DNA of 35,428 nucleotides. Source: a virus. The stretch is taken from positions 1-35,428 of IMG/VR virus record IMGVR_UViG_3300009001_000037, one strand, 5' to 3'. Numbering within the stretch: position 1 is the first letter of the stretch; the number at the start of each line of letters is the position of its first letter. Of the stretch, positions 17,749-33,506 are shown piece by piece. The position numbers were made by a program, and so were the translations under genes. The notes under the pieces were generated by a model, which saw only the letters and a list, made by a program, of their open reading frames with translations, did not search any database and had not been told where the DNA came from.

Positions 17749-17749
17749 T

Positions 17750-17830
17750 ATGAAAATTTTATTTACTCTTCCAAGTATAGAAGAAAATAAAAAAAAGGAT
17801 GGAATATCTAAATTGGGGTTCATATATTAA
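17750..17830 (+). pseudogene. Remnant of a glycosyltransferase start, resembling the 18391 gene
   Basis: A 26-codon frame begins MKILFTLPSIEENKKKDG and stops early at TAA 17828-17830. The first 12 residues and about 35 of the first 41 bases match the start of the gene at 18391 (MKILFTLLSIGE). The bases before both ATGs are also alike (ACTTATAGT and GTTTATAAT). It looks like the stump left when the FkbM gene and its promoter were inserted in, or duplicated within, the cluster. A functional 26-residue peptide is unlikely. Confidence 0.5.
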
Positions 17831-17858
17831 ATACAAATAAATACAAATAAAAACAAAT
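17815..17858 (+). promoter_or_regulatory. Candidate promoter and tandem 10-base leader repeats before the FkbM gene
   Basis: GGTTCATATATTAAATAC (17817-17834) matches the recurring phage promoter motif. It is followed immediately by three tandem 10-base units, AAATACAAAT, AAATACAAAT and AAAAACAAAT, which end at the ATG at 17859. An unstructured A-rich leader of this kind favours initiation in hosts that do not use Shine-Dalgarno pairing. Promoter function is inferred from motif recurrence. Confidence 0.45.
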
Positions 17859-18374: not shown

Positions 18375-18390
18375 CAAGAAAGTTTATAAT

Positions 18391-19113
18391 ATGAAAATTT
18401 TATTTACACTTTTAAGTATTGGAGAAAAGTATAGTAAAAGCTGTACAATGCTTATCCAGGAGCTTTTAGACAACACCCCTTATGATATATTGGTATCTAC
18501 AGATAATGTAGAATATTTTCCCAATTATCCTAAAAGAGTAACAATAAGACAAAATATAGAAAAAAAAGCTAAAATTCTATACAGTGGGGTGGAATTTAAT
18601 TATAATTTAAAATTCCACGCTTTTGAAAATATACCAGAAGGATATGATATAATATTATATTTAGATTGTGATATAAAAAATAATTTTTGGTCTAAAGAAG
18701 GTGATAATAAACTTAAAGCTTCATTTAATGGTCATGATTTTATAGCATGTAGACTAAATTGTATACTTAAAAATGAACTAACACAGTTAAACTCTACTGG
18801 AAATTGTTTATTTAAACATAAAATTTCAAGTTATAAAGCTAATGAATGGGAAGATAAAAGTTTATATGAATCTAAACTACCAAGTGAACACTTTTTTGGT
18901 TTTAAGTATGATAAAAACAAACTAACTAAGTTTTACAAAAAATGGAGAGAATTAAATTACCAACTACAATTAGTAGAAGAGGCAAGAAGTTGGGGAGATG
19001 GATTTGAAATAGGAGTAGCAGCTTTTTACGCAGGGTATAAAAATTCTTTTGAGTTTAGCTATACAGATCAACAACTTCTTTTAGGGTTAGAATTTAATGG
19101 TAATAAACTTTAA
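18391..19113 (+). CDS. GT-A-type glycosyltransferase
   Basis: This encodes 240 residues from the ATG at 18391. An upstream in-frame ATG at 18310 lies inside the FkbM gene and adds a sequence with no family sense. The start MKILFTLLSIGEKYSKSC is typical of a nucleotide-sugar-binding first strand. IILYLDCDIK carries the D-x-D metal motif of GT-A folds, and later HFFGFKYD and WGDGFEIGVAAFYAGY are plausible acceptor-site residues. It has no membrane segment. The family resembles short capsule or LPS glycosyltransferases. Donor and acceptor are unknown. It ends 3 bases before the next gene, suggesting coupled expression. Confidence 0.65.
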   Translation: MKILFTLLSIGEKYSKSCTMLIQELLDNTPYDILVSTDNVEYFPNYPKRVTIRQNIEKKAKILYSGVEFNYNLKFHAFENIPEGYDIILYLDCDIKNNFWSKEGDNKLKASFNGHDFIACRLNCILKNELTQLNSTGNCLFKHKISSYKANEWEDKSLYESKLPSEHFFGFKYDKNKLTKFYKKWRELNYQLQLVEEARSWGDGFEIGVAAFYAGYKNSFEFSYTDQQLLLGLEFNGNKL

Positions 19114-19116
19114 AAT

Positions 19117-20064
19117 ATGAAAAAAATAGCATTCCACTCAAATCAATTATGTTTAAGAGGTACTGAGGTGGCTTTGTTTGATTATGCAAAATATAACGAG
19201 GATATTCTTGGAAATAAAAGTGTTATTTTTAGTAACCCAAATGCTAATTTAGATGCATTGCCCAAATTTAAAAAAAGATTTGAAGTACAACTTATGGATT
19301 GGTGGTCTTATGAAAGATATTTATTAGATAATAACTTCGATTATCTCTATATAATAAAGGGAGGAAATAATGATGGGTACTGTTTACCTAAAACATCTAT
19401 ACCTACTATAATTCATGCTGTTTTTAGACATAATGAACCTCATGGTTACAAATATATGTATGTATCAGATTGGTTAGCTAGAGACCAAGGATACGATCCT
19501 GCTGAATATTCACTCCCTCATATATGTGAACCTCTCCCTCAACCCACTGAGACATTACGTCCCCAGTTAGGTATAAAAAATACAGATATAGTTTTTGGCT
19601 ATTATGGGGGAAGTACAGAATTTAATATACAGTCAACTAAAGAAGCAATTATTTCAGCAATTTCTTTACGGAATGATATAAAATTTACCTTCATGAATAT
19701 TGATAAATTTGTAGATCACCCACAGGTAATTTTTTTACCCGGAACTTACGACCTACAGGAAAAGTCTAATTTCGTACACACCTGTGATGCAATGATACAT
19801 GCAAGATCAGGTGGAGAAACATTTGGTTTAGCAGTTGCTGAATTTGCTCTTGCTAACAAGCCGATAGTAACCTATGAACTTTCGGGAGAACGTAATCACA
19901 TAGAAGTACTAGGAGATACAGGGATTTATTATAAAGGAAAGAAAGATTTATTAGATATATTTTTAAATTTTTCAAAATATAGAAAAGATATAGATTATGC
20001 TGAACCCTATCAACAATTCAACCCAGAAGCTATAATGAATAAGTTTAATAAGTTACTTAAATAG
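19117..20064 (+). CDS. GT-B-type glycosyltransferase (GT4-like)
   Basis: This encodes 315 residues. The first strand and loop read KKIAFHSNQLCLRGTEVALFDYA, which has the G-T-E pattern found in GT4-like enzymes. The C-terminal Rossmann-like domain contains FGYYGGSTEFNIQ and the donor-binding segment HARSGGETFGLAVAEFALA followed by NKPIVTYELSGERNHIEVLG, with the E-x7-E-like acidic residues. This retaining-type enzyme would use a nucleotide-activated sugar. It lies between a GT-A and a fucosyltransferase-like gene with spacings of 3 and 2 bases, so the three are probably translated from one transcript. Confidence 0.75.
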   Translation: MKKIAFHSNQLCLRGTEVALFDYAKYNEDILGNKSVIFSNPNANLDALPKFKKRFEVQLMDWWSYERYLLDNNFDYLYIIKGGNNDGYCLPKTSIPTIIHAVFRHNEPHGYKYMYVSDWLARDQGYDPAEYSLPHICEPLPQPTETLRPQLGIKNTDIVFGYYGGSTEFNIQSTKEAIISAISLRNDIKFTFMNIDKFVDHPQVIFLPGTYDLQEKSNFVHTCDAMIHARSGGETFGLAVAEFALANKPIVTYELSGERNHIEVLGDTGIYYKGKKDLLDIFLNFSKYRKDIDYAEPYQQFNPEAIMNKFNKLLK

Positions 20065-20066
20065 AA

Positions 20067-20840
20067 ATGGTAGAGATAACAGAAGACTTTATCTCAGCAG
20101 GTAGAAACCTAGGAAATAAGTTATTTACTTATGCAGTTGGGAGCATACTTGCAAAAGAATTAGGATACTCACTAAAGATACCTACATCGTCCTATATACG
20201 TAGAGGAGAGCAACTACAACTATTTCCATTTCAAAGCACAAAGGGGATAGAAGTACATCAACCTGTTTTATCTGTATGTGATGGAGGAATGCAACAAAAA
20301 ACAATTAACGGGGTTGTTGAAGAAGGAAAAAACAAGAAAATAGAATTACCTGGGTACTATCTTAAATATGAAAATATAAAACACCACAAAGACTATATAA
20401 AAAAGATATACAGCTCATTAATAGAAGATTTTACAGAAGTAGGTTCCATAGTAGTACTGTTACGTGATAGTAGGGTAGATCCAACCTTTAAACTCCCAAA
20501 TAGTTACTACATACAGCAACTTGAAAAATTAAACGTAAAAAAACTTTATATTAGTTTTGATCATTACGATAGGCATAAAGACTTAATAAATCAACTTAGT
20601 AAATACAATCCTGTACTTCTTGATTTAGATATACTAGAGTTGTTTAAAAAAATAACAAGCATGGAGACGATAATCGCTAGTCAAGGTACTTATTCCTTCT
20701 GGTCATGCTTGCTTTCAAATGCTAAGACTATAATATGGCCCATAACAAAGATAGGACCCAATAAAATTACAGACCCTAATGTTGATATAGTCGTAAATGA
20801 TGAAGATAGGTACAAATTTACATATATAGATAATGATTAA
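20067..20840 (+). CDS. GT11-like fucosyltransferase
   Basis: This encodes 257 residues. GRNLGNKLFTYAVGSILAKE near the start is the hallmark of alpha-1,2-fucosyltransferase-like (GT11) proteins (G-x-GN-x-LF-Y). The later SQGTYSFWSCLLSNAKTIIWP matches the family's S-x-SFWS region, and the central IVVLLRDSRVD stands where HxRRGD-type motif I occurs, though diverged. The likely donor is GDP-fucose or a related GDP-sugar. The codon use differs a little from neighbours (more ATA and CTA). It overlaps the following GT10-like gene by 8 bases. The substrate is unknown. Confidence 0.7.
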   Translation: MVEITEDFISAGRNLGNKLFTYAVGSILAKELGYSLKIPTSSYIRRGEQLQLFPFQSTKGIEVHQPVLSVCDGGMQQKTINGVVEEGKNKKIELPGYYLKYENIKHHKDYIKKIYSSLIEDFTEVGSIVVLLRDSRVDPTFKLPNSYYIQQLEKLNVKKLYISFDHYDRHKDLINQLSKYNPVLLDLDILELFKKITSMETIIASQGTYSFWSCLLSNAKTIIWPITKIGPNKITDPNVDIVVNDEDRYKFTYIDND

Positions 20841-21732
20841 AATAAGAGTATCCGGACCCTGGGACACACCAGAAAACATACTTAACAGACTCCTCCAACA
20901 ATTTACAACAGATAATGTAGATTTTTCTAACGTCACTTTTGTTACAGATGATTCGTACGACATTGTAGTATTTTTGAACTACATTGACCTGGAAGTACCA
21001 GATGGTAAAAAAATCTTTGTGTTCCCCCATGAACCCTTATGGAATGGTCAACACCAAAAAAATTATTCTTCATTTAAAAATGTTAAAGTATTTGGATTTG
21101 ATAAAGAATCCTATACTCCTACAGAATCATGTATCCCTACAATAGCCCATACTTTTTATGGAGGTAGGGGTCCATGGGTTGATAAATTAGAAGATTGGAA
21201 TTATAAAAGTTTAATAAATATTAAACCTAAAAAAACAAAAAACATTTCATCAATATTAACTAATAATATAAATGCTTTAGAATTTAATAATAAGTTTAGT
21301 TTGTATGAATGTAGGTATAATTTAGCTAAATATCTTATATCTAATGCTTCTTTTATAGATTATTATGGTGGGTGGGGTTTAAAAACTTCTGAGTATAAAA
21401 AATCCACTGTTAAAGATTATATGTTTAGCATAGCCATAGAAAATGAATCTTCCCCTAATTGGATATCTGAAAAATTTTATGATCCTATATTATATAATAC
21501 TATTCCTATTTATTATGGTTGCTCAAATATAAAAGAATATTACCCTGAAAATGGATATATATTATTAGAAGATCCTTTTGATACCCAAAAAACTTTAAAA
21601 CAGATTAAAAATATACAAAGTAATGCTAAAGATATTTATAAAGAAATGTTACCTAATTTATTAAAAATAAAACAAAAATATTTTAACCAATATAATCTAC
21701 TTAAAAAAATCATAAAACTAGCTAATCAATAG
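20833..21732 (+). CDS. GT10-like alpha-1,3/4-fucosyltransferase
   Basis: This encodes 299 residues. The donor-binding signature of GT10 enzymes is clear. YMFSIAIENESSPNWISEKF is followed by YDPILYNTIPIYYGCSNIKEYYP, which fits F-x-x-A-x-EN...EK-x-x-x-P...IP-Y-G. In the family this binds GDP-fucose. The N-terminal half has the partner Rossmann-like domain with KKIFVFPHEPLWNG. It starts within the last codons of the GT11-like gene (ATGATTAA overlap). Together the two enzymes suggest a fucosylated (or similar deoxyhexose) product. Nothing in the window makes GDP-fucose, so the host must supply it. The codon use becomes more AT-rich in the second half. Confidence 0.82.
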   Translation: MIKIRVSGPWDTPENILNRLLQQFTTDNVDFSNVTFVTDDSYDIVVFLNYIDLEVPDGKKIFVFPHEPLWNGQHQKNYSSFKNVKVFGFDKESYTPTESCIPTIAHTFYGGRGPWVDKLEDWNYKSLINIKPKKTKNISSILTNNINALEFNNKFSLYECRYNLAKYLISNASFIDYYGGWGLKTSEYKKSTVKDYMFSIAIENESSPNWISEKFYDPILYNTIPIYYGCSNIKEYYPENGYILLEDPFDTQKTLKQIKNIQSNAKDIYKEMLPNLLKIKQKYFNQYNLLKKIIKLANQ

Positions 21733-21767
21733 TAAAATTCCAAAATAAAATCTGAAAAAAATCAATA

Positions 21768-23438
21768 ATGAGTAAAATTACATTAGTTACAGGTTTATGG
21801 GATATAAAAAGAGACCAACTAAATGAGGGATGGTCTAGGTCCTTTGACCATTATTTAGAAAAATTTTCTCAATTACTTGAAGTTGAGGAAAATTTAATAA
21901 TTTTTGGGGATTCTAAATTAGAAAAATTTGTATGGGGTAAAAGAGACCCAAAAAATACCCAATTTATAGAAAGATCTCAAGAGTGGTTTAAAAACCATTT
22001 TTTTGAACAAATACAATCTATAAGAAACAATCCTAATTGGTTTAACCAATCAGGATGGCTTCCAAATTCTACCCAAGCTAAACTAGAAATGTATAACCCT
22101 CTAGTTATGTCTAAGGTATTTTTACTTAATGATGCTAGTATTTTTGATAAATTTGATTCTGAACATTTATATTGGATCGATGCTGGAATCACCAACACAG
22201 TTCATCCTGGATATTTTACTCATGATAAAGTACTAGATAAACTCCCAGAACATATTAACAAATTTAATTTTGTTTGTTTCCCTTACAAAGCAGAAAATGA
22301 AATACATGGGTTTACTTACCCAGATATAAATAAATTTTCTGGAAAAGATACTAAATTAGTAGGAAGAGGTGGTTTTTTTGGAGGTCCTAAAAAATCTATT
22401 TCAGATATAAATGGAATATATTATAATCTAATGTCTGATACACTTAATCAAGGGTATATGGGTACTGAAGAATCTATTTTTTCTATTATGGTTTACAAAT
22501 ATCCTGAATTAGTAAGTTATGCTGAAATTGAAGATAATGGGTTAATAAATAAATTTTTTGAAGATTTAAAAAATGATCAACTTAAAATCAAATCTCAATC
22601 TAAAAAAGTAAATTTAAAACCTATAAATTATTCTAATGTAGGTTTGTATGTCATTACTTATAATTCCCCAAATCAATTTAAAACATTAATTGAATCCTTT
22701 AAACAATATGATCCTGATTATTTAAATAAACCTAAAAAGTTTTTATTAAACAATTCAATAGATAAATCTACTTTTGAAGAGTATGATAAGTTATGTGAAG
22801 AATTTGGTTTTGAAGAAATCCACCAAGATAATATAGGAATTTGTGGCGGAAGACAATTTATAGCCGAACATTTTGATAAACAAGAAGAATTGGATTACTA
22901 TCTATTTTTTGAGGATGATATGTTTTTTTATAATGGTTCCGATATTACTTGTAAAAATGGATTTATTCGAAAAATAAAAAACTTGTATAAAAGATCTTTA
23001 GACATTGCCAATAAAGAAAATTTTGATTTTTTAAAATTAAATTATACTGAATTTTTTGGGTCTAACGATTTACAATGGGCTTGGCATAATGTCCCTCAAG
23101 ATACTAGACAAAAATACTTCCCGGAAAACCCTACAAAAGAAACAAATGATGTAAAAGCTGCTCCTTTTTTAAAATACCAAAATATAAAATCGTATGATGG
23201 GATTGCTTATGCAACTGGGGAAATCTATTATTGTAATTGGCCTCAAATAGTATCCCGTGAAGGAAATAAAAAAATGTTTTTAGAAACAACTTGGGTCCAC
23301 CCCTATGAACAAACTTGGATGTCTTATATTTACCAAGAAACAGTAAAAGATAATATAAATCCTGGGATTTTATTATCAACCCCTACTGAACATGATAGGT
23401 TTGATTTTTACCCAAAAGAAGAAAGAAGAGAAAATTAA
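21768..23438 (+). CDS. Two-domain protein: HtrL/YibB-like plus GT2-like glycosyltransferase
   Basis: This encodes 556 residues. Residues 1-275 resemble the HtrL/YibB (WlaTC) family: ITLVTGLWDIKRDQ, NPLVMSKVFLL and LYWIDAGI, the last being a D-x-G signature. Residues 290-556 form a GT2-like GT-A domain: VGLYVITYNSPNQFKTLIES begins it, with FFEDDMFF carrying the DDD-like metal motif, and KMFLETTWVHPYEQTWMSYI near the end. Proteins of both families add sugars in LPS or capsule loci. Fusion in one chain suggests two linked transfers. It ends the glycan cluster and is followed by a strong intrinsic terminator. There are 35 A-rich bases before its ATG. Confidence 0.7.
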   Translation: MSKITLVTGLWDIKRDQLNEGWSRSFDHYLEKFSQLLEVEENLIIFGDSKLEKFVWGKRDPKNTQFIERSQEWFKNHFFEQIQSIRNNPNWFNQSGWLPNSTQAKLEMYNPLVMSKVFLLNDASIFDKFDSEHLYWIDAGITNTVHPGYFTHDKVLDKLPEHINKFNFVCFPYKAENEIHGFTYPDINKFSGKDTKLVGRGGFFGGPKKSISDINGIYYNLMSDTLNQGYMGTEESIFSIMVYKYPELVSYAEIEDNGLINKFFEDLKNDQLKIKSQSKKVNLKPINYSNVGLYVITYNSPNQFKTLIESFKQYDPDYLNKPKKFLLNNSIDKSTFEEYDKLCEEFGFEEIHQDNIGICGGRQFIAEHFDKQEELDYYLFFEDDMFFYNGSDITCKNGFIRKIKNLYKRSLDIANKENFDFLKLNYTEFFGSNDLQWAWHNVPQDTRQKYFPENPTKETNDVKAAPFLKYQNIKSYDGIAYATGEIYYCNWPQIVSREGNKKMFLETTWVHPYEQTWMSYIYQETVKDNINPGILLSTPTEHDRFDFYPKEERREN

Positions 23439-23465: not shown

Positions 23466-23494
23466 AAAGGAGTGCAATAGCGCTCCTTTTTTTT
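23466..23494 (+). terminator. Intrinsic terminator ending the glycan cluster
   Basis: AAAGGAGTGC, loop AATA, GCGCTCCTTT forms a 10-bp stem (one G-T pair) followed by eight T residues at 23487-23494. It lies 27 bases after the stop of the 21768 gene and separates the glycan cluster from the exported-protein operon. Confidence 0.9.
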
Positions 23495-23507
23495 ATATTT
23501 ATACTCC

Positions 23508-23529
23508 GAATAGTGCGGCAACACTGTTC
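23508..23529 (+). ncRNA. Leader hairpin with CGGCAA hexaloop
   Basis: GAATAGTG, loop CGGCAA, CACTGTTC folds into an 8-bp stem (one G-U pair) with the loop closed by G-C. No T-tract follows, so it is not a terminator. It lies in the 80-base leader of the exported-protein operon. The same CGGCAA loop closed by G-C recurs in the hairpin at 26415-26440 in the same operon, suggesting a shared RNA signal. This is seen in sequence; the function is unknown. Confidence 0.5.
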
Positions 23530-23574
23530 AATTCAATAGTTTTTCCAACCGTTTTTTTAACTAAAAAGTTAAAT

Positions 23575-24048
23575 ATGAGATTAATATATTTCATTTTTGC
23601 CTTAATGATAGGCATTAATGCGTATAGTCAAGAAACTATACACATACAAGAAGTTACCAATAACATAGTTATGGGGCCTTTTGCAGGTAACCGTAACCTA
23701 GCTTTTGGTGTAAAGAATATACTAGAAGAAGTAATTCAAGATAAAGACTATTACTTAGATGAAAATGCATCAAAAAGTATTAAAGTCGAACTACTATACT
23801 TTGACGTAAAGAAAAACAGCATGCAATTGGCAGCATATGGACGTAAAGTTGATATCACTCAAATTATTGCAGGTGCAAGGTTAATAGTAGATGGAAAAGT
23901 AGTAAAAGAAGTTACTGCAAAAGGGACTTCTAAGTCTATTTCAACATCTACTTTAATTATAGATGATGGGGGAAAATTTTCTCAAGCTGGTGTATCCTCT
24001 GCACTTAAAAAAGTTTGTGAACAACTTATAGATAAATTAAAATTATAA
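23575..24048 (+). CDS. Exported small protein, first gene of the envelope operon
   Basis: This encodes 157 residues. Residues 1-19 form a signal peptide (LIYFIFALMIGINAYSQ) with cleavage before Gln-Glu, the Bacteroidetes habit. The mature part (about 138 residues) is alpha/beta: LAFGVKNILEEVIQ, VELLYFDVKK, then a hairpin region GARLIVDGKVVKEVTAKGTSKS and a C-terminal helix. This resembles small periplasmic proteins of the type associated with outer-membrane assembly or the CsgG-like fold, but I cannot name the family. It overlaps the next gene as TAATG. It is first after the terminator and leader hairpin, so probably it opens the operon ending with the OM-barrel gene at 29066. Confidence 0.65.
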   Translation: MRLIYFIFALMIGINAYSQETIHIQEVTNNIVMGPFAGNRNLAFGVKNILEEVIQDKDYYLDENASKSIKVELLYFDVKKNSMQLAAYGRKVDITQIIAGARLIVDGKVVKEVTAKGTSKSISTSTLIIDDGGKFSQAGVSSALKKVCEQLIDKLKL

Positions 24049-25742
24049 TGAAAAAATTACTATTTTTATTACTCTTACCGCTTACTTTAATAGCTCAAGA
24101 TGGGTATGTTAGCCATAGCTATATCGATAACGATACAAATGCATTTGCTGTAGGAGATATTATTACTGTTAAAGTTGAATGGATTGACAATAATAATATC
24201 ACACCAGATCTTATCCATATTGATTTACAATGGAATAATAAATTATTAGAATTAGTCGATAATACTTTCGATCCATCTTTATCTTTTCCTGCCAATACAC
24301 AAACAAGTTGGAATAATTGGACTGGTTATTCATTTGACGATAATGACGCTATAAACGATAATGATCTAGATGGGCAATATAGTTGGTGGGCATCTGGAGC
24401 AAGCCAAGCAGGGACTAACTCCTATCCTTCATCTGCAGATTGGTCTGTAGGTAGATTAACAATTCAAGCTTCTAATACTCTTCCTTCTTCAACTCCTTTA
24501 ACTTATATAAGATTTAGAGTTAGAGACAGACAAGGAACAAATTATTCAAATTATGATAATGTAACTAAAATTAACTTTGCTAAACTAGAAGATATAGGAG
24601 ATGCTTCTGGATTATACGACATACAGGCAGGGACTCAAACAATATCTTTATCCACAGTAACAGGAGTTGGAGCAGGTAATATTAAAATAGTACTAAATAC
24701 TCCTGCAAAAGCAAATCATGCCACAGACTTTGGTTATTCTCTTTACAGTTCAAATCAATTAACTGAAGGAGGATACCCAGATGCAAATGAACTACCAATT
24801 AAAAGTGGGAATTTTGATGCTAATGGAGAAGCAGAGATAAGTGGATTAATTATTGGTGAAACTTATTGGGTACATACTCATATAAACCAAACACCAGAAT
24901 GGTTGGATGAAGTATTAACCGTAACAGATGCATATATTATATTTCAAGAAGCTATATCAGCAGGAAATACTCCTGGTGGTCAAGGAGGTTCTTTTGAATA
25001 CCAAATACAATATGAATTAGGAGAAGTAACTAATTCAGGTAATGTTGATTTTCAAGATTCATACGTAGCTTTAGCCCATGTTAATGGTGTAGATCCCGGT
25101 AGCACTTGGTTTACTTCAATAGCCAACGGTGCTTTTAATTTAAGTCGTGATGTTGCTACATTTGGAGTTTCTTCTAATGAATATTATTTTGGTCTAAAAC
25201 ATACATTCACAATTGTAGAAGGGACTGTAAATTATAATTTTGCACACGCTTTTAAAGGTGATCCTGATTTTTCACATTCATATACTCCAACAGCAACAGG
25301 AGCAACTACTGGGAATCAGGCCCAAGCTCAAGCAATGTCCAGATTAACTACCAATGCTCTAAAAGATCCTATACAATCAAATTTAGATATAGTATCTGAA
25401 CTTATAGATGGTAAAGTACATTTTACAATAAACTTACAAGAAGAAGGAGTAATAGGAACTCAATTTAATATTAAGTATGATGAAACCATCTTAACTTTAG
25501 ACAATGTAATTTTTGATACTGGAAATGAAATGACAAACTTTGCTAATCATAAAGAAAATTTAGCAAAAGTAAATATTGGTTCTTTAGATCAGGATGGAGA
25601 TGTAAGTATAAAAATAGGCAATGCTTATAAACTTATCTTCACTCCTAACCAAGCAATACAAAATACTTCAGGGTTAATTACTTTTAAATTAACTGAAGGA
25701 GTTAAAGCTGATGGTACAAAAGTAAAATTTAATATACAATAA
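24048..25742 (+). CDS. Exported cohesin/dockerin-like adhesin
   Basis: This encodes 564 residues. The signal peptide is KKLLFLLLLPLTLIAQ, with cleavage at or just after AQ. The mature protein is beta-rich. A first cohesin-like domain begins AVGDIITVKVEW, with later DLIHIDLQWNNKLLELV. A last domain with the same plan begins DGKVHFTINLQ and reads GTQFNIKYDETILTLD. Between them lies a segment with GNVDFQDSYVALAHVNGV, like half of a dockerin Ca-binding repeat, preceded by LTVTDAYIIFQEA. Such layouts occur in extracellular assemblies of Bacteroidetes. In a phage it could be displayed on the infected cell or shed. No T9SS C-terminal domain is apparent. It is coupled to its upstream gene by TAATG. 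Confidence 0.65.
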   Translation: MKKLLFLLLLPLTLIAQDGYVSHSYIDNDTNAFAVGDIITVKVEWIDNNNITPDLIHIDLQWNNKLLELVDNTFDPSLSFPANTQTSWNNWTGYSFDDNDAINDNDLDGQYSWWASGASQAGTNSYPSSADWSVGRLTIQASNTLPSSTPLTYIRFRVRDRQGTNYSNYDNVTKINFAKLEDIGDASGLYDIQAGTQTISLSTVTGVGAGNIKIVLNTPAKANHATDFGYSLYSSNQLTEGGYPDANELPIKSGNFDANGEAEISGLIIGETYWVHTHINQTPEWLDEVLTVTDAYIIFQEAISAGNTPGGQGGSFEYQIQYELGEVTNSGNVDFQDSYVALAHVNGVDPGSTWFTSIANGAFNLSRDVATFGVSSNEYYFGLKHTFTIVEGTVNYNFAHAFKGDPDFSHSYTPTATGATTGNQAQAQAMSRLTTNALKDPIQSNLDIVSELIDGKVHFTINLQEEGVIGTQFNIKYDETILTLDNVIFDTGNEMTNFANHKENLAKVNIGSLDQDGDVSIKIGNAYKLIFTPNQAIQNTSGLITFKLTEGVKADGTKVKFNIQ

Positions 25743-25743
25743 A

Positions 25744-26121
25744 ATGAAAAAAATTATAACCATATTCTTATTAATATTATCAGTTAGCTGTGCTAAAGAC
25801 GAAGAAATTATAGTACTACAACCTGATCAAGAAGTTCCTCAATCTCTAGTAATCGATGAATTACAAGGACTTAAATTAGAAAACCTAAATGTATCAAGTG
25901 AAGTAGCAATGAATGTAAAACTTCCATCAGACGGTATTTATAGAATAAAAATTAAACACGGTTTGAATAGTGAGTTGATTTCACAAGAAAAGATACAGGG
26001 TAAAGAAGGAGACAATATTTTAAAAGTATATGTTAATACTTTAGAAGTAAGTTCTTATAGATTAGAGCTTACCAATGAAAGCAATCAATTAATAGGAGTA
26101 ACAGTATTCTCTAAATTATAA
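25744..26121 (+). CDS. Lipoprotein with surface-export signal
   Basis: This encodes 125 residues. The signal peptide ends in a lipobox LSVSC at residues 12-16. The next residues are A-K-D-E-E. In Capnocytophaga and relatives, a Lys plus acidic cluster directly after the lipidated Cys (consensus QKDDE) is the lipoprotein export signal sending the protein to the outer face of the outer membrane. The mature domain is a small beta sandwich-like unit with NVKLPSDGIYRIKIKH and SYRLELTNESNQLIGVTVF. The gene begins one base after the adhesin stop (TAAA then ATG), indicating coupled translation. The surface location is inferred from the rule for this phylum; the partner could be the adhesin or the OM barrel. 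Confidence 0.7.
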   Translation: MKKIITIFLLILSVSCAKDEEIIVLQPDQEVPQSLVIDELQGLKLENLNVSSEVAMNVKLPSDGIYRIKIKHGLNSELISQEKIQGKEGDNILKVYVNTLEVSSYRLELTNESNQLIGVTVFSKL

Positions 26122-26124
26122 ATT

Positions 26125-26409
26125 ATGTCAGAAGAACAACAAGGAGGATTTTTCCAACAAATTAAAAATCAAATCATAGCTGCATTAGGTGTAGCTTTAA
26201 CAACAGCAGGTACAGTTTTTTTAAATGAAATTAAAACTGCATTAGGTCTTGAAACACCTGAAGCAATAGAAGTAGTAGCAGAACAACCAAAAGAATCTAC
26301 TAAAGATACTTTAGTAATACTTCAAAAAGCTCAACCTAAAGTAATAGTTAAAAAAGTTCAACCTAAAAAAACCGAAACAGAAAAAAGAAAAGAAGAATTC
26401 GATTGGTAA
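26125..26409 (+). CDS. Single-pass membrane protein with Lys/Pro-rich tail
   Basis: This encodes 94 residues. After a short N-terminus (MSEEQQGGFFQQIKNQ), residues 18-33 (IIAALGVALTTAGTVF) form a hydrophobic helix. The rest is polar, ending in repeated KVIVKKVQPKKTETEKRKEE-type basic/acidic residues. The long Lys/Pro-rich tail resembles TonB-like linkers or a short periplasmic arm. An i-spanin-like role with the lipoprotein upstream as partner is a possible alternative, but spanins usually lie beside the lysis genes. I do not recognise the family. It starts 3 bases after the lipoprotein stop. Confidence 0.5.
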   Translation: MSEEQQGGFFQQIKNQIIAALGVALTTAGTVFLNEIKTALGLETPEAIEVVAEQPKESTKDTLVILQKAQPKVIVKKVQPKKTETEKRKEEFDW

Positions 26410-26414
26410 AAACG

Positions 26415-26440
26415 GAAGACCCGGCGGCAACCAGGTCTTC
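26415..26440 (+). ncRNA. Intergenic hairpin with CGGCAA hexaloop
   Basis: GAAGACC (26415-26421) pairs with GGTCTTC (26434-26440). Inside it, after one C-A mismatch, GG pairs with CC around the loop CGGCAA. The following bases are TCAATTCC, not a T-tract, so it is not a simple terminator. The loop matches the hairpin at 23508-23529. It lies between the genes at 26125 and 26488, where it could process or stabilise the operon transcript. It is GC-rich in AT-rich surroundings. Confidence 0.55.
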
Positions 26441-26487
26441 TCAATTCCAGTTGATTTTAATATAAAGTGAAGAGTATAACAATTAAA

Positions 26488-26739
26488 ATGACAACCATGA
26501 ATTATTTATTACAACATACAAAGAAATTTTGGCTAAGCCAAGTAATTCTTAGTATTCTTAGTTTTTATAAATTAGAACAAGATAATCTTATTAGTAAAAC
26601 AATCGAAGTTATTTTCAAGGCATGGATAACATTCCTTTTTGTACTAGCTACATTAGGAATAGTAAAATTAGCTTTTGAATTATTAACTAATCCAACCCAA
26701 TTTAATAATCTTACTTTTGGGGTATTCGATTATATCTAA
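26488..26739 (+). CDS. Small membrane protein, unknown
   Basis: This encodes 83 residues from the ATG at 26488. An in-frame GTG at 26467 would add seven residues, but the ATG has the usual A-rich leader. Residues 16-29 (WLSQVILSILSFYK) and 48-66 (WITFLFVLATLGIVKLAFELL) are hydrophobic, so one or two helices cross the membrane. The C-terminus is polar and ends GVFDYI. It starts 48 bases after the hairpin and stops 1 base before the CsgG-like gene (TAATATG). No family is recognised. Confidence 0.5.
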   Translation: MTTMNYLLQHTKKFWLSQVILSILSFYKLEQDNLISKTIEVIFKAWITFLFVLATLGIVKLAFELLTNPTQFNNLTFGVFDYI

Positions 26740-26740
26740 T

Positions 26741-27451
26741 ATGAAATATTTTATCGTATTTTTACTTGGGCTAAATGTAGCATTTGGTCAAGTACTAGGC
26801 AAAACAACTACTGAGGATTATACAGCTGGATTTGAATCAAGAGAATCTATCTGGTCTGTTCCAGAATATAACGGAGACCCAGTTACTGTCGCCCTCCTTA
26901 ATATTGGAGTTAGTGATGAAGTACTATCACAATACCCGGAACTAGGAGATTACCGTGTAGGGTTAGGTCTTACCAATATAACAGTAGCATTCTTAGATGA
27001 AACATTTAGATTTGAATTCGTTGAAACTAAAGACGAAATTAAAAATAGAATGGTTTCTCAATACAAAGCTTCCCAGAAAGGATTTACTGCAAACCAAATT
27101 AACATTAAAGGTAAGATTATGCTTGCTAAATACTTTTGTTATATAGAAGTATATGACTTTTCTATTTCGGAAGATGAAAATATTAGCTTAAAAGATGGAG
27201 TTAAAAGTAACTTAGTTACTAGGTTAGGTCTTCAAGTTAAGATGGTCGATGCTGAAACAGGCCTGTATATGACAGGTTCAGGTTTAGGTAAAGCTACAAC
27301 AACAAGAGAAATGACTCTATTAAATGATCAAAATTTAGAAGAAATTAAATTTAACCAGTCTTCAATTGGTACGTCAACCAAGAAAGCTTTAGAAACAGCA
27401 GTAGCTAAAGTAGTAAAGAGGATGATACGCAAACGTATATTTGATCATTAA
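26741..27451 (+). CDS. csgG: CsgG-like outer-membrane secretion channel
   Basis: This encodes 236 residues from the ATG at 26741; an upstream in-frame ATG at 26717 would sit in the previous gene. The signal peptide MKYFIVFLLGLNVAFG is cleaved before Gln. The mature part resembles CsgG: VALLNIGVSDEVLSQYP, then LGLTNITVAFLDETFRFEFVET and later GLYMTGSGLGKATTTRE, followed by a C-terminal helix ending KALETAVAKVVKRMIRK. In E. coli, CsgG is the lipid-anchored nonameric pore that exports curli subunits. Here there is no lipobox Cys, unlike E. coli CsgG, so pore insertion would differ. It begins one base after the preceding stop. The partner substrates could be the adhesin and other exported proteins of this operon. 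Confidence in family is fair from these segments alone. Confidence 0.72.
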   Translation: MKYFIVFLLGLNVAFGQVLGKTTTEDYTAGFESRESIWSVPEYNGDPVTVALLNIGVSDEVLSQYPELGDYRVGLGLTNITVAFLDETFRFEFVETKDEIKNRMVSQYKASQKGFTANQINIKGKIMLAKYFCYIEVYDFSISEDENISLKDGVKSNLVTRLGLQVKMVDAETGLYMTGSGLGKATTTREMTLLNDQNLEEIKFNQSSIGTSTKKALETAVAKVVKRMIRKRIFDH

Positions 27452-27452
27452 T

Positions 27453-29066
27453 GTGCGAAAACTACTCTACATATTATTTTTATTTGTCTGTTTTAAATCT
27501 ATAGGACAGACCCAAACTATATCTCAAACTTTTGTAGACAGATGTACTGGTGAAACCACAATAGTAACAGCTAACTTTGTAAATGGTTCAGCTGTAGTAG
27601 CATTTTATAATAGGGTAAAAACATTCACTTGGGATGAATATACGAATGGAACTTTAGAAGCATGGCTTAATGAAACATACCTTTGGTGGGAAAATTTAAG
27701 CCCATGCTCTACAGCAACAGCAACAAACCAAACCACACAGCAGACAACTACTAATGCTACTTCTAGTGCTACAAACGCTGCTACTAATGCCGCTAGTACT
27801 GCAGGAGGAACAACAAGTTCAACAACAGGGACAGCATCTACTAACACAGGTTCGACTTCAACAGGATCTACCAATACGTCTAATGGTAACACAAATACAG
27901 GAAATGGTTCAACAAATTCAAATTCTTCTTCTTCAAACTCATCGTCTGGGTCTTCGGATTCATCTAATAGCTCTTCGTCTGGTAATGATTCCACTGGGGG
28001 TGGAGATGACCAATCTAATAGTTCGTCAAGCGGATCAGGAGGAGATTCGGGAGGTGAAAGCGAAAATACTAGCAGCGGAGGCAAAAGTGAAGGAGATACT
28101 TCTAATGATTCAAAGGAAGACACTTCAGATACAAATAGTGAAGAATCCACCGAAGAAGAAAGTAGCACTGAATCAGAAAGCTCAGAAGATAGTGAAAGTG
28201 AAAAATCTGAATCTGAAGAAGTAGAAGAAGAATCTTCAGAAGAGTCAGAGGAAGAAAGTTCTGAAGAAGAAAGTTCTGAAGAAGAAGAAAAAGAGGAGAA
28301 GAAAGAAGAAAAGAAAAAACGTAATCCTATAGCAGTAGCTGCTAATATAATGACCCAATCTGGTCTAGATGGAAGATTAACCCAAGCAGCTAGTTTTGGA
28401 TTTTCACAATCTTCACTTACAGGTACTACCACTTACTCTGCTAATGCTATGATTTGGGATAACCTAAAGCAATTTAGTTTAGGTTTATCTAAATCAGATG
28501 TATATTTTAATTATGACAGAGAAGAAAAATTATTTTTAAGAAACCCAAAAACAGGTAAAAATGATTTGTATTTTGGTTCTACTTACGGTAGAGGAAGTAT
28601 AATGATGATACAATCTGTTAGTGCTAACTTTATGTACATATACGGTACTAAAGTAGCATCGTTTGGTTTGTCAAACGTATACTTAGGTCAAAAAGAAAAC
28701 TTCTGGAAAGGATTCGTAGGTGGGTATGCTCTCTCTGGCACTATAATAAATGTAGATGATACTGTAATGATAATGCCCTCTGGTGTATTATTTGGTACAA
28801 AACCATTTCCAACTAAAAGAGTTACTATTTCTCCAATGCTCGCTCTGGCATTCAATCCAGTCTCTTACACTTTTAATACTAAAGAAAAAACATTAAAAGG
28901 AGATTTAGTATGGAACGAACATATAACTTATATAGTAGGCTCAAATTTTGATGTGGGGCTTACTCAAAGGTTTAGATTTAATATAGGAGGTAATATAATA
29001 GGAACGACCCTTCCAGGAATTCCATTAACTTGGTCAGCAACTATTGGATCTAAATTTCAGTTTTAA
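27453..29066 (+). CDS. Outer-membrane-barrel-like protein with Ser/Glu-rich segment
   Basis: This encodes 537 residues from GTG at 27453 (TTG at 27441 would prefix four residues to a fine signal peptide; ATG at 27451 is out of frame). The signal peptide RKLLYILFLFVCFKSIG is cleaved before Gln. A 60-residue domain with two Cys follows. Next come about 190 residues of low complexity, first Thr/Ala/Asn, then Ser/Asn/Gly, then Ser/Glu and finally Glu/Lys. The last 240 residues form alternating aromatic strands ending in GSKFQF, typical of an outer-membrane beta barrel with a terminal Phe. The acidic segment would lie outside or in the periplasm and may bind cations. It ends the operon. Confidence 0.65.
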   Translation: MRKLLYILFLFVCFKSIGQTQTISQTFVDRCTGETTIVTANFVNGSAVVAFYNRVKTFTWDEYTNGTLEAWLNETYLWWENLSPCSTATATNQTTQQTTTNATSSATNAATNAASTAGGTTSSTTGTASTNTGSTSTGSTNTSNGNTNTGNGSTNSNSSSSNSSSGSSDSSNSSSSGNDSTGGGDDQSNSSSSGSGGDSGGESENTSSGGKSEGDTSNDSKEDTSDTNSEESTEEESSTESESSEDSESEKSESEEVEEESSEESEEESSEEESSEEEEKEEKKEEKKKRNPIAVAANIMTQSGLDGRLTQAASFGFSQSSLTGTTTYSANAMIWDNLKQFSLGLSKSDVYFNYDREEKLFLRNPKTGKNDLYFGSTYGRGSIMMIQSVSANFMYIYGTKVASFGLSNVYLGQKENFWKGFVGGYALSGTIINVDDTVMIMPSGVLFGTKPFPTKRVTISPMLALAFNPVSYTFNTKEKTLKGDLVWNEHITYIVGSNFDVGLTQRFRFNIGGNIIGTTLPGIPLTWSATIGSKFQF

Positions 29067-29106
29067 TATGTATAACAAATATTGTTTCACCTAAATTAGT
29101 TATTTT

Positions 29107-29367
29107 ATGTTTAATTATTTAAAACGTAAATGGATGGCTTTCAAAGACATTTTTAAAGATCAAAATGATATGAATGAAAAAACCGTAGTAGGTTTTATGT
29201 CATTCGCAATTATGGCAATATTTGCCTTTGCTGATATAGGCTCAGGAATATTTGGAAAAGATTTAGTAATTAATGAATTTATTTATAATTCATTTGTTAT
29301 TATTACTTTAGGATCATTTGGTATTGCCGAAGCAGGTAAAATATTTGGAAAAAAAGATAACGAATAA
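29107..29367 (+). CDS. Small two-helix membrane protein of the lysis cassette
   Basis: This encodes 86 residues. After a basic N-terminus (MFNYLKRKWMAFKDIFKDQ), two hydrophobic helices follow, TVVGFMSFAIMAIFAFADIG and, later, FIYNSFVIITLGSFGIAEAG, ending in basic KIFGKKDNE. It could be a holin partner or antiholin. It starts 40 bases after the OM-barrel stop, and its stop overlaps the next gene start (TAATG). No named family is recognised; the lysis role comes from the neighbours. Confidence 0.55.
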   Translation: MFNYLKRKWMAFKDIFKDQNDMNEKTVVGFMSFAIMAIFAFADIGSGIFGKDLVINEFIYNSFVIITLGSFGIAEAGKIFGKKDNE

Positions 29368-29969
29368 TGTCATATACAAGAGAACAAATTCAAAAAGCTG
29401 TAGAATCTAAAGGATATAAATGGTTTGAAGGCGGTGACTACAACCTAAATATAGTTGGAGTACGAAATTCAGACACCCATGGTGTTGTAACAAATAAATT
29501 TGATGATAAATTAACTGTTTCTTACTCAGTAAATGGTGAAATGAAATATCATGAATTTGATGCTACAACAGATCCAGGTTCACATTGGGAAAAAAATCTA
29601 CTTAATAAAGATGGTGTAGCTATTTTAGTTCCTAATCAATATAGAGGATCTCATGAAATTAGAAAACATCAAGGTAAATATGAAGCTTTATGCCAGAAAA
29701 AACCAGTTAAAGTTTATAGAGACAATAACAAAGATGGTAAATATGATATGATTGAAGAAAACATCAAAGAGGGTATTTTTGGGATTAATATCCATAAAGC
29801 AGGTTCAAGAGTAGAAGGTTCTACCCAAATAGACAAATGGTCAGCTGGTTGTCAAGTATTTTCAAAAGAATCAGATTTTAATCAATTAATGGAATTAGCT
29901 TATAAAGCTAAAAATTTATATGGTAATTCATTTACCTATACCTTAATTGAATCAAAAGATTTAGTATAA
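29367..29969 (+). CDS. YkuD/L,D-transpeptidase-like cell-wall enzyme, probable endolysin
   Basis: This encodes 200 residues. The catalytic pattern of YkuD domains lies near the C-terminus: FGINIHKAG (His143), then WSAGCQVF with Ser159, Gly161 and Cys162, matching H...[ST]-x-G-C. The enzyme would act on the peptide stems of peptidoglycan, here probably cutting or exchanging cross-links during lysis. It has no signal peptide, so a holin must let it through. It lies between a small membrane protein (TAATG overlap) and the holin-like gene (2-base gap), which is the reason for the endolysin call. L,D-transpeptidase folds normally make cross-links; some phages use the fold for lysis, so the exact reaction is inferred. 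Confidence 0.7.
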   Translation: MSYTREQIQKAVESKGYKWFEGGDYNLNIVGVRNSDTHGVVTNKFDDKLTVSYSVNGEMKYHEFDATTDPGSHWEKNLLNKDGVAILVPNQYRGSHEIRKHQGKYEALCQKKPVKVYRDNNKDGKYDMIEENIKEGIFGINIHKAGSRVEGSTQIDKWSAGCQVFSKESDFNQLMELAYKAKNLYGNSFTYTLIESKDLV

Positions 29970-29970
29970 G

Positions 29971-30387
29971 ATGAAAACTATCAAATTAGCAATTTTAACT
30001 TCAAGTATGTCAATAGCTTTTATATGTTCCTATTTTATGGAACTTACAATGCAAAACGCAGAACAATATTTAGCTGTTGCTATGTTAATTTTTGCTGATG
30101 GATTTTTCGGGATAATAGCGGGAACAAAAAGAGAGGGCTTTAAAACTTATAAAGCCCTTAAAATCTTAAAAACATTAGTTTTTTGGATTATTATATTAAC
30201 ATTAATTTTAGTTATAGAAAAAAGTATTCCTGGAGCAGGTTGGTTAAGTGAAACTGTAACTATGCCTCTAGTAGTATTTCAATTAATAAGTGCCCTAAAA
30301 AATGCATCAATGTCTGGTTTTATTAAAACAGATATTGTAAATCAAATTTTAGACCGTATTGATAAGCATAAGGGTATAAGAAAATAG
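29971..30387 (+). CDS. Holin
   Basis: This encodes 138 residues with three or four hydrophobic helices: LAILTSSMSIAFICSYFM, YLAVAMLIFADGFFGIIAG, LVFWIIILTLILVIEKSI, and a weaker segment around VTMPLVVFQLISALKN. After the second helix, the sequence TKREGFKTYKALKIL resembles the phage holin_4 family. The C-terminus, TDIVNQILDRIDKHKG, is a charged helix facing the cytoplasm. A holin forms the membrane lesion that frees the upstream YkuD-like enzyme. It starts 2 bases after that gene and its stop codon lies inside the terminator stem at 30381-30409, so it ends the lysis transcript. Confidence 0.75.
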   Translation: MKTIKLAILTSSMSIAFICSYFMELTMQNAEQYLAVAMLIFADGFFGIIAGTKREGFKTYKALKILKTLVFWIIILTLILVIEKSIPGAGWLSETVTMPLVVFQLISALKNASMSGFIKTDIVNQILDRIDKHKGIRK

Positions 30388-30424: not shown

Positions 30425-31672
30425 ATGCTTAAAAAATTAAAACAAGGTATATTTCCTTTTATTATAGCATTTTCCGCCCTGTCGGTGTCTGCTTCGGCCG
30501 CTTTCTATTCTGTTAGTGGCCTTAGCAAACTTTTTGCTGGTGCATCTTTTGAGGTAATAATTATGGCTGGTTCTTTAGAAGTAGCTAAATTAGTTATAGC
30601 ATCCCTTTTATATCAGTACTGGACTGATTTAAATAAACTACTTAGAACATATTTAACTATTGCAGCTACAATATTAGTATTAATTACTAGTATGGGCATT
30701 TATGGGTTTTTATCTGCAGCTTATCAAGAAACTTATTCTAAACTATCGGCTGTAGAAAATGAGAAAAAATTTATACAACAAAAAATAGATTTTTATGGTG
30801 CGGACGTTACAAGATATGATGGTGAACTTAAAAGAATATCTAACAATATTAGTACTCTTTCCAATGCTAGGTCTCAACAAATCCAAGTACGAGACACCTC
30901 GGTGGTTGGAGGCGTTAGAACCACAATATCAACTTCCGAACTTAGGGCTGCACAAGCTAGGATTAAAGTTGAAGAAGAAAATAGGAAAAATGTACAATCC
31001 CAACGTGAAATAGCAGCAGATAGTTTACGTAAATTTCAATTACAAGTATTAGAATTAGATAACAACACAGAAGTAGCTGGGGAATTAGGTCCATTACAGT
31101 ATCTATCGGGTTTAACTGGAGTATCAATGGATAAAATCATCAACATCCTGTTATTGGTGATTATATTTGTATTTGATCCTTTAGCCATTTCACTCGTTGT
31201 TGCAGCAAATTTTGCATTTGAAAAAGCATATCCAAAAAAAAAGTATAGGCAAAATTTATACGGAGAAGAAGTAGAAGAAAATATTACTTCGGTTTGGGAT
31301 ACAACTTTAAATGATGGTTTAGAAGATGAACCCGAATGGGAATTTACTACAAATAGTGATAAACCAACTAAAGTAGAAGTTACTCCCTTTATTAATCTTA
31401 AAGATATAGAAGTTAAAGATGCTGAAGAAGTAAAATCTAAGGAAGAATTTTTTGAGCAATTAGATAAAATAGAAAAAAGTAATAAAAATATTCTAGATTT
31501 AAACCAAGATGGGGTTGTAGATAAAAATGAAATCTTAACAGCTAGATCCCAACTTAAAAATTTAAAATCCCAAATGCACCCCGGCTTATCTGCTTTTAGA
31601 AAAAATAAAATACAATCTCAAATAGATAAATTAAAACAAGCACTAGATAATGATGAAACAAAAACTTATTAG
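30425..31672 (+). CDS. Membrane protein with coiled coil and EF-hand-like loop
   Basis: This encodes 415 residues. Hydrophobic helices lie at about 10-32, 42-64 and 76-96. A long coiled coil with heptad-like Glu/Lys/Gln/Leu extends over about 100-215. A further helix (IINILLLVIIFVFDPLAISL) follows around residue 240, and a polar C-terminal domain completes the protein. The C-terminal domain contains DLNQDGVVDKNE (residues 358-369), a perfect EF-hand calcium loop pattern D-x-N-x-DG-x-x-D-x-x-E. No family is recognised. Such proteins recur in marine T4-like phages and could sit in the host inner membrane. The gene begins 16 bases after the terminator, and a weak TATATTTAT lies in the gap. It overlaps the next gene by 23 bases. 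Confidence 0.6.
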   Translation: MLKKLKQGIFPFIIAFSALSVSASAAFYSVSGLSKLFAGASFEVIIMAGSLEVAKLVIASLLYQYWTDLNKLLRTYLTIAATILVLITSMGIYGFLSAAYQETYSKLSAVENEKKFIQQKIDFYGADVTRYDGELKRISNNISTLSNARSQQIQVRDTSVVGGVRTTISTSELRAAQARIKVEEENRKNVQSQREIAADSLRKFQLQVLELDNNTEVAGELGPLQYLSGLTGVSMDKIINILLLVIIFVFDPLAISLVVAANFAFEKAYPKKKYRQNLYGEEVEENITSVWDTTLNDGLEDEPEWEFTTNSDKPTKVEVTPFINLKDIEVKDAEEVKSKEEFFEQLDKIEKSNKNILDLNQDGVVDKNEILTARSQLKNLKSQMHPGLSAFRKNKIQSQIDKLKQALDNDETKTY

Positions 31673-32228
31673 TTTATTAATACTATTACCTCTTTTACTA
31701 CAAAGTCAAGTAATAAAAACAGATATTTTTATAGTAGAATACGATCAAAAAAAAGAACAACCTTTATGGGTAGAATATACAGTACAATGCCCTAAAGGAG
31801 ATGCTTCTAGACAAGGAATGGATTTTTATAAAGATGATGAAATTCATACCTCAGATAATGATGATTACAAAAATAATATTTGGGATAAAGGCCATTTAGC
31901 TCCCGCTGCTTCTTTTAATTGTGATAAAGAAACACTTAAAAAAACATTTTCTTATTTAAACTGTGCTTTACAACACCAAGGTTTAAATAGAGGTGTTTGG
32001 AAAGAATTAGAAGAATTTGAACGAAATTTAGCTAATTTTTATGAAGTAAAAGTAAGAATAGATGTTATATTCGAAGTGGGAATGGGTATGCCAATATTTT
32101 TAGATTCAGGTGCTGTGGTGCCAACAGATTTTATTAAAACATTAGAATTTGGGGGTAAAAAATATATATTTAAATTTCCAAATATAGATACTAAAGGAAC
32201 AAAATGGGCAGATTATTTGATAGAGTAA
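31650..32228 (+). CDS. Exported NUC1-family DNA/RNA nonspecific endonuclease
   Basis: This encodes 192 residues. The signal peptide (KLISLLILLPLLLQSQ) is cleaved before Gln-Val. The catalytic motif WDKGHLAPAA is the D-R-G-H block of NUC1/Serratia-type nucleases with Lys for Arg. The following NCALQHQGLNRGVWKELEE provides the Asn that holds the magnesium ion and the Glu of the N-x7-N-x-G-x-W-x-x-LE pattern. The mature enzyme (about 175 residues) would degrade DNA or RNA in the periplasm or outside the cell. Export from an infected cell suggests a role in removing incoming DNA, nucleotide salvage or slime loosening. It overlaps the upstream membrane gene by 23 bases. Two adjacent ATGs (31650, 31653) are equally usable. 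Confidence 0.8.
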   Translation: MMKQKLISLLILLPLLLQSQVIKTDIFIVEYDQKKEQPLWVEYTVQCPKGDASRQGMDFYKDDEIHTSDNDDYKNNIWDKGHLAPAASFNCDKETLKKTFSYLNCALQHQGLNRGVWKELEEFERNLANFYEVKVRIDVIFEVGMGMPIFLDSGAVVPTDFIKTLEFGGKKYIFKFPNIDTKGTKWADYLIE

Positions 32229-32834: not shown

Positions 32835-33506
32835 ATGCAAAGTGGAATTTATAAAATAACAAACCCTGAAGGTAAAATTTATATTGGGTGTACAAGTGAT
32901 TTAGAACGAAGAATCAAAGATTATGAACGAGGTAATATTAGAACCCAACCCTTGATACTGGAATCCTGGAGAAAACATGGTTGGGATTCTCATATATTTG
33001 AAATACTGGAGTATACTGAGGATTTAATATTAAAAGAAAAATATTATATTAAAAAATATGACTCGTACTACAAGGGATTAAATGGTAATAAGGGAGGTAA
33101 CGGAGTAAAAAAACACACTTTAAACACCCGATTAAAAATGGGGATAGCAGGTAAAAAAAATAAAGGTAAACGTGCTATTTCCCATAGAAAAGGTAAAAAA
33201 CTAAGTGAAGAACATAGATTAAATATGAGTATGGCTAAAAAAGGAATCCCATCACATAGAAAAGGTAAAAAACTAAGTGAAGAACATAGGTTAAATATAA
33301 GTAAAGGTAAAAAAGGATTACCAAATCCTAAAAATGCCAAAGCTATATTACAATATGATAAAGACAATACCCTTATTGCCGAACACCCCAGCATAGAACA
33401 AGCTGCTATCTCAGTAAATGGGAATCCAACAGCTATAACCAACGCTTTAAGAAAAGGTGGAGAAGCAACATCTTCTTCGTATATTTGGAAATATAAAAAG
33501 TTATAA
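32835..33506 (+). CDS. GIY-YIG homing endonuclease with NUMOD3 repeats
   Basis: This encodes 223 residues. GIYKITNPEGKIYIGCTSDLE carries the GIY and YIG strands at residues 4-6 and 16-18, followed by ERRIKDY with the catalytic Arg. The Glu needed for metal binding fits LKEKYYIKKY (about residue 75). The centre has two copies of a NUMOD3-like DNA-binding repeat (HRKGKKLSEEHRLN), 24 residues apart. The C-terminus matches a NUMOD1-type helix-turn-helix, HPSIEQAAISVNG with YIWKY at the end. Free-standing enzymes of this type cut a related phage genome near their own site and so copy themselves. It sits 3 bases before the transglycosylase gene, so that gene or its flank may be the target. Confidence 0.88.
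   Translation: MQSGIYKITNPEGKIYIGCTSDLERRIKDYERGNIRTQPLILESWRKHGWDSHIFEILEYTEDLILKEKYYIKKYDSYYKGLNGNKGGNGVKKHTLNTRLKMGIAGKKNKGKRAISHRKGKKLSEEHRLNMSMAKKGIPSHRKGKKLSEEHRLNISKGKKGLPNPKNAKAILQYDKDNTLIAEHPSIEQAAISVNGNPTAITNALRKGGEATSSSYIWKYKKL
33183..33304 (+). repeat. Tandem 50-base repeat encoding two NUMOD3 units
   Basis: A block starting CATAGAAAAGGTAAAAAACT at 33183 recurs at 33255, a period of 72 bases (24 codons). About 50 bases match with two differences. It encodes HRKGKKLSEEHRLN twice. The low divergence points to recent duplication or continuing conversion between the two units. Confidence 0.75.

Follow-up and report, generated by a model that had tools for sequence, protein, structure and literature searches.

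Curli-type secretion operons (type VIII secretion system, T8SS) are carried by pelagiphages and by the Methylophilales phage Melnitz, and encode a true CsgG (PF03783 at 1e-48 or better), CsgF, curlin repeats, FecR and an adenylate cyclase. A role in 'sibling capture' has been proposed for those of pelagiphages (PMC7029224, PMC9599517), and a role in lysis has been suggested for the CsgGF pore of Melnitz (PMC9004378). Cryophage carries genes with type A sorting domains of the type IX secretion system (T9SS), one of them with a PA14 domain, for which superinfection exclusion has been suggested (PMC7468147). Here, we analyse a block of seven consecutive genes, named A to G, at positions 23575–29066 of a 35,428-nucleotide stretch of viral DNA (IMG/VR record IMGVR_UViG_3300009001_000037, positions 1 to 35,428; hereafter the window), which is a 35-kb piece of a large T4-like phage. 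The block resembles the curli operons of pelagiphages and Melnitz in being a set of putative outer-membrane secretion genes borne by a large myovirus, soon after ssb and with a predicted CsgG-fold protein, F. It differs from them in that F has no CsgG sequence match, curlin was not found and the partners are cohesin/dockerin domains, a T9SS-type domain and an autotransporter-like barrel. Whereas the cargo genes of Cryophage are described as single and variable (PMC7468147), here several genes are conserved together as a module, and a lipoprotein can take the place of the sorting domain. We favour, with moderate confidence, a reading of the block as a module for display on the cell surface that is specific to phages and forms a counterpart, without curli, to the operons of pelagiphages. 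No description of this gene combination was found in searches of an open-access library, a scope that leaves most subscription journals outside.

Seven consecutive genes for exported and membrane proteins

The genes of the block are the following (locus counts refer to the 86 loci compared below).

23575..24048, plus strand: gene A, 157-residue exported protein with a signal-like N-terminus (78 of 86 loci)
24048..25742, plus strand: gene B, 564-residue exported protein, cohesin-like/dockerin-like/cohesin-like (Pfam and PDB profile matches)
25744..26121, plus strand: gene C, 125-residue lipoprotein with a T9SS-sorting-domain-like predicted fold and the surface-export signal CAKDE (lipobox; PF18962 in orthologues)
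26125..26409, plus strand: gene D, 94-residue protein with a single transmembrane segment and a Pro/Lys-rich tail ending EFDW (81 of 86 loci)
26497..26739, plus strand: gene E, lineage-specific membrane protein of about 80 residues (28 of 86 loci)
26741..27451, plus strand: gene F, 236-residue exported protein with a predicted CsgG fold (AlphaFold2, Foldseek, VIA-align)
27453..29066, plus strand: gene G, exported protein with a two-Cys domain, a helix, a disordered Ser/Glu linker and a C-terminal beta-barrel (AlphaFold2)

An earlier note, made from the sequence alone, had proposed seven consecutive envelope-protein genes here. All seven open reading frames were found where it placed them, with small corrections of the starts: E most likely begins at 26497, F at an ATG (26741) and G at a GTG (27453; an in-frame TTG lies at 27441). 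The order is A-B-C-D-(E)-F-G, and the products are exported or membrane proteins. A simple hydrophobicity scan gave signal-peptide-like N-termini for A, B, C (with a lipobox), F and G, and membrane segments for D and E, the two membrane proteins that had been expected. The same scan applied to 19 upstream genes of the window gave a signal-like N-terminus for only one (18310, start uncertain); the downstream genes J, K and N also have one. The TAATG overlaps that had been taken to join the genes into one unit are present at A/B and H/I, but at F/G the motif is out of the frame of G.

Recurrence of the module in other phages

Scanning IMG/VR with an alignment of F showed that relatives of F are encoded by 482 contigs, of which the best 80 were retrieved. 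In all, 86 loci were compared, the window and 85 others; as some contigs are truncated, the counts of missing genes are maxima. F is present in 86 loci, G in 83, D in 81, A and B in 78 each, C in 63, H (a small gene downstream of G) in 52 and E in 28, and the commonest order is A-B-C-D-(E or H)-F-G. The gene order thus recurs, with variations, in 85 further loci, in answer to the check that the earlier note had suggested. The F sequences fall into 39 clusters at 90% identity and eight at 70%, so that the module does not belong to one recent lineage. Two kinds of irregularity were seen: B and C are both doubled (A-B-B-C-C) in L105, L118, L120, L147 and L149, with a C-type lectin domain in the second B of L120 and L147, and in L128 sequencing error or decay has broken B and F into two or three frames each.

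The F family is almost confined to phages. Only two loci were found in 84,980 species genomes, both on contigs in bacterial bins: L069 is phage contig-like by its neighbours, and L070 lies on a 254-kb binned contig, where it adjoins tail-collar-like and endolysin-like genes. Among 50,697 phage records, F matched only Flavobacterium phage immuto, cultured on Flavobacterium LMO8. tblastn searches of the same records with A, B and G gave no match, and the synteny of immuto was therefore traced via F. Its gp013–gp018 encode, in order, a C-type lectin, a protein without a clear domain, a cohesin with a T9SS sorting domain (gp015), D, F and G. The module is common to many uncultured phages of Flavobacterium-like bacteria.

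Gene B, gene C and the T9SS sorting domain

Cohesin (PF00963) was matched by 12 of the 22 B orthologues, the best at 5e-8; the B of the window alone gives 0.0046, under the curated cut-off. Against PDB profiles, all 13 matches of its C-terminal part are cohesin/scaffoldin-type or cellulosomal (best 0.0012). Dockerins, or cellulosomal proteins that contain one, take the top seven places among the matches of its middle part (best E value 0.0098, marginal), Pfam Dockerin_1 being found in one of the 22 orthologues, and cohesins make up three of the four weak matches of its N-terminal part (E value about 0.1, marginal). Taken together, these matches make B look like a cohesin–dockerin–cohesin protein, in line with the cohesin/dockerin-like adhesin of the earlier note as regards the cohesins, with a marginal dockerin part. 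B resembles cellulosome scaffolds in its cohesin and dockerin domains, but here they are on a phage, enzymes were not seen and relatives have lectin domains instead: C-type lectin domains occur in B-like proteins of the same operon in L129, L120, L147 and immuto (gp013), and a PA14/GLEYA domain in L102.

The lipobox cysteine of C is invariant, which bears out the lipoprotein predicted in the block. Bacteroidota lipoproteins are exported to the surface by the signal C-X-K-(D/E)2 (PMC5080379); C of the window has CAKDEE, which fits, and an acidic residue occupies position +4 in 38 of the 43 distinct signals among its orthologues. Moreover, the T9SS sorting domain PF18962 was matched by 16 of 24 C orthologues (best 1.3e-7; just 0.15 for C of the window alone), while the C profile had no meaningful match in the PDB. 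C is thus predicted to be a surface-directed lipoprotein with a T9SS-sorting-domain-like fold. A spanin role for C and D was set aside, as the tail of D is short and C has an immunoglobulin-like domain as in T9SS sorting domains.

B of the window has no T9SS sorting domain at its C-terminus. Among the 78 loci with B, 69 have the lipoprotein and a B without the sorting domain (in six of these 69 the lipoprotein was recognized from its position and lipobox rather than with the C profile), and nine have a B with the sorting domain and no lipoprotein; none has both and none has neither. In the nine (L129, L132, L133, L137 and L142–L146) the domain is canonical and C-terminal; immuto gp015 and an L070 protein also end in sorting domains. 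Either a sorting domain on B or a separate lipoprotein after B, never both, in 78 of 78 loci, is a relationship newly found here. The plain reading of these sequences is that C would take over the task that the sorting domain has elsewhere, holding B at the surface.

The predicted fold of F and its putative relative A

The AlphaFold2 model of F (predicted local distance difference test score 74, predicted template modelling score 0.70) finds CsgG as its best match in the PDB (Foldseek 5.2e-7; VIA-align Z 12.0, root-mean-square deviation 5.8 over 154 aligned residues), ahead of PelC (Z 9.9), FlgT, LptE and TraT (Z 6.8). PelC and the surface-exclusion lipoprotein TraT thus share the same broad fold with lower scores, and F differs in having no lipobox. 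The model contains one long hairpin (strands 131–149 and 153–170) with the conserved acidic residues E144, D145 and E146, and a second region (190–199) of low confidence. Searches with the F sequence against Pfam, PDB and CsgG profiles gave no match, and hhalign of F against the CsgG profile returned a probability of 0.8%. According to the model, F has a CsgG fold; by its sequence it would be placed outside the CsgG family.

The C-terminus of A carries the motif F-x-Q-x-x-V-S-x-A-L-K-K, similar to that of F. A also matches PF03923 weakly (0.021), and its profile has no meaningful match in the PDB. A is probably a small relative of F, for which we infer a CsgG/ABD-like fold.

The predicted barrel of G

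In the AlphaFold2 model of G, a barrel of 12–14 strands is confidently predicted. It is close to the translocator of the autotransporter NalP (Z 23.8, root-mean-square deviation 2.9, 230 aligned residues) and to the amyloid exporter FapF (Z 19.0; Foldseek rank 2, 6.3e-7). The barrel follows an acidic linker of 205 residues with a net charge of −36 (113–308 residues and mostly strongly negative in orthologues), as anticipated for an outer-membrane-barrel-like protein with a long Ser/Glu-rich segment. G is thus predicted to be an outer-membrane barrel nearest to autotransporter translocators and FapF. The barrel fold is shared with FapF and type V autotransporter translocators, but G has no sequence match to them, and a disordered acidic linker of 170–200 residues lies between the N-terminal domain plus helix and the barrel. 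By eye, the N-terminal domain may be CsgF-like (a DR-TG motif in common).

Other features of the locus

Further features around the block are the following.

23466..23494, plus strand: intrinsic terminator upstream of the block (10-pair stem at 23466–23489, then a T run)
23506..23531, plus strand: hairpin with the loop CGGCAA, about 45 nucleotides before gene A (eight related contigs; stems vary, with imperfect pairing in L002/L003)
26413..26440, plus strand: hairpin with the loop CGGCAA, between D and E (covarying stem in eight contigs)
29107..29367, plus strand: gene H, 86-residue small membrane protein (52 of 86 loci, often between D and F or before A)
31650..32228, plus strand: gene N, exported DNA/RNA non-specific endonuclease (PF01223 8.1e-25, DKGH motif, signal-like N-terminus)

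The terminator that was said to bound the block upstream is real; in its region ten terminator-like sites were found, compared with 4.1 expected from shuffles. Likewise, the lysis genes expected downstream were recognized as the endolysin-like gene I (phrog_33083, 6e-14) and the holin-like gene J (PF05105, 1e-4). The extent of the block had been underestimated: its seven genes are there, but H and often the nuclease N travel along with them. In 23 of the 86 loci N accompanies the module, either nearby or inside it, sometimes between D and F or between F and G; it resembles immuto gp012. Nearly all D orthologues share a conserved tail that ends in an EFDW-like motif, possibly a docking signal.

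The sequence GCGGCAA of the two hairpins occurs nowhere else in the window, and in L077 both loops read CTGCAA. An Rfam search of the window gave no match, the CGGCAA hairpins included. A phage RNA-binding regulator might use the pair as operators.

Upstream, the window carries baseplate, gp32-like, UvsX-like, exonuclease, DnaB-like helicase and ribonucleotide reductase genes, followed directly before the block by a cluster of glycosyltransferase-like genes (16489–23438), including GT10 fucosyltransferase-like and HtrL/YibB-like genes. Downstream are a conserved 415-residue multi-pass membrane protein whose N-terminal part is especially well conserved (30425–31672; 24 of 86 loci), a GIY-YIG/NUMOD3 homing-endonuclease-like gene (32835–33506) and a QueC-like gene (34688–35428; PF06508, 1e-35), which suggests 7-deazaguanine DNA modification; immuto has a QueC-like gene too.

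Proposed function and alternatives

Exported, surface-directed and glycan- or cohesin-binding parts in a virulent-type phage lead us to propose remodelling of the infected-cell surface. During infection, the Bacteroidota host would send A, B, F and G out via Sec, and C via the lipoprotein path to the outer surface, where C would hold the cohesin–dockerin–cohesin scaffold B. In relatives with a sorting domain fused to B, the T9SS of the host would export and anchor B. The autotransporter/FapF-like barrel of G would be inserted in the outer membrane, with a long acidic stalk that bears a small disulphide domain. At the same membrane, F and A, its smaller relative, would build a ring or channel of CsgG fold, and D and E would link the assembly to the inner membrane. 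The relatives with a sorting domain on B keep F and G, which makes it unlikely that F and G serve B export only. Lectin or PA14 domains added in relatives may bind glycans. The remodelled surface could then block competing phages or stick cells together before lysis; blocking competitors is our first guess, as the nuclease and the upstream glycosyltransferases suit that theme, with aggregation ('sibling capture') next. The uses put forward in the earlier note, blocking superinfection and holding cells or particles, are possible ones.

Several points weigh against this reading. Predicted structures cover F and G, and the readings of A, B and C come from sequence comparison. None of 28 F orthologues matches PF03783, a model that the CsgG proteins of E. 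coli, HTVC008M and Melnitz all match at 1e-48 or better, and the signal-like N-terminus of F ends in AFGQ, without the Cys of a lipobox. For these two reasons F is at most a putative pore: of the CsgG-like secretion channel proposed in the earlier note, the CsgG fold is retained in the model, but the channel is made doubtful by the same two observations and by the conserved acidic residues of the one long hairpin. The profile–profile link between A and F is weak (hhalign, 39 C-terminal columns, pairwise E value 0.0013, probability just 18%), and the dockerin and N-terminal cohesin of B are each marginal alone. Most of the support for the exclusion between C and the sorting domain comes from a single clade, whose nine loci are related to each other and so are not nine independent events. 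Finally, localisation, the ring or channel, the attachment of B to C, the crossing of the outer membrane by B in the lineage of the window and the benefit to the phage are steps that we infer.

A more elaborate version of the display module is possible but doubtful as a whole. It would be a phage-built surface organelle with a pair of CsgG-fold rings (A and F), the autotransporter-like stalked barrel G and an inner-membrane part (D and E). On it would stand a cohesin/lectin scaffold, the anchor of which, once a T9SS sorting domain, would have become a separate surface lipoprotein. A matching pair of RNA hairpins would mark the organelle, which would exclude rival phages together with the exported nuclease.

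The functional-amyloid origin of two structural matches, CsgG for F and FapF for G, raises the question of whether the block is a divergent curli-type (T8SS) amyloid exporter, with F as the pore and G or another product exported as cell-tethering fibres, as has been proposed for pelagiphages. The position of csgFG soon after the single-strand binding protein gene in HTVC008M and Melnitz is similar. Yet Pfam searches of the ten genes at 23575–30387 found no CsgG, curlin (CsgA/B) or CsgF, a remote functional substitute being possible, F has no sequence link to CsgG, and B is cohesin-like rather than curlin-like. We consider such an exporter unlikely. The direct proximity of the holin-like and endolysin-like genes, the frequent presence of the small membrane protein H within the operon and the lysis role proposed for the Melnitz pore would suit a lysis module in which F and G open the outer membrane and C and D act like spanins in time with the holin and endolysin. 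However, homologues of I and J are near the module in just 12 and 18 of the 86 loci, respectively, the tail of D is apparently too short to span the periplasm, and lectin, cohesin and sorting domains are unexpected in lysis proteins, so that this role seems rather improbable.

The sorting-domain-like fold on a lipoprotein might also mean that C and B target the T9SS of the host, with C as a lipid-anchored mimic that jams it and thereby stops the display of gliding adhesins and phage receptors. But C is gone exactly when B carries the sorting domain, which fits anchoring better than inhibition, and we regard jamming as very unlikely. Packaging of the proteins on the particle as adhesion or neck fibres, which cohesin, lectin and PA14 domains would suit too, is the least probable reading and is ruled out as the main explanation by the signal-peptide-like N-termini, the lipobox, the outer-membrane barrel and the absence of structural PHROG matches, replication and glycosyltransferase genes moreover separating the block from the baseplate genes.

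Implications

The curli operons of ocean phages have had no clear function so far. If the block is a surface display module, it would be a second solution, unrelated in sequence to the phage curli operons, to what is apparently the same task. Its carriers are phages of a different phylum, and with 482 contigs it is widespread. A surface lipoprotein in place of a T9SS sorting domain would bear on how sorting domains anchor proteins. Moreover, with a cultured member, immuto on Flavobacterium LMO8, the rebuilding of the host surface by virulent phages before lysis becomes directly testable.

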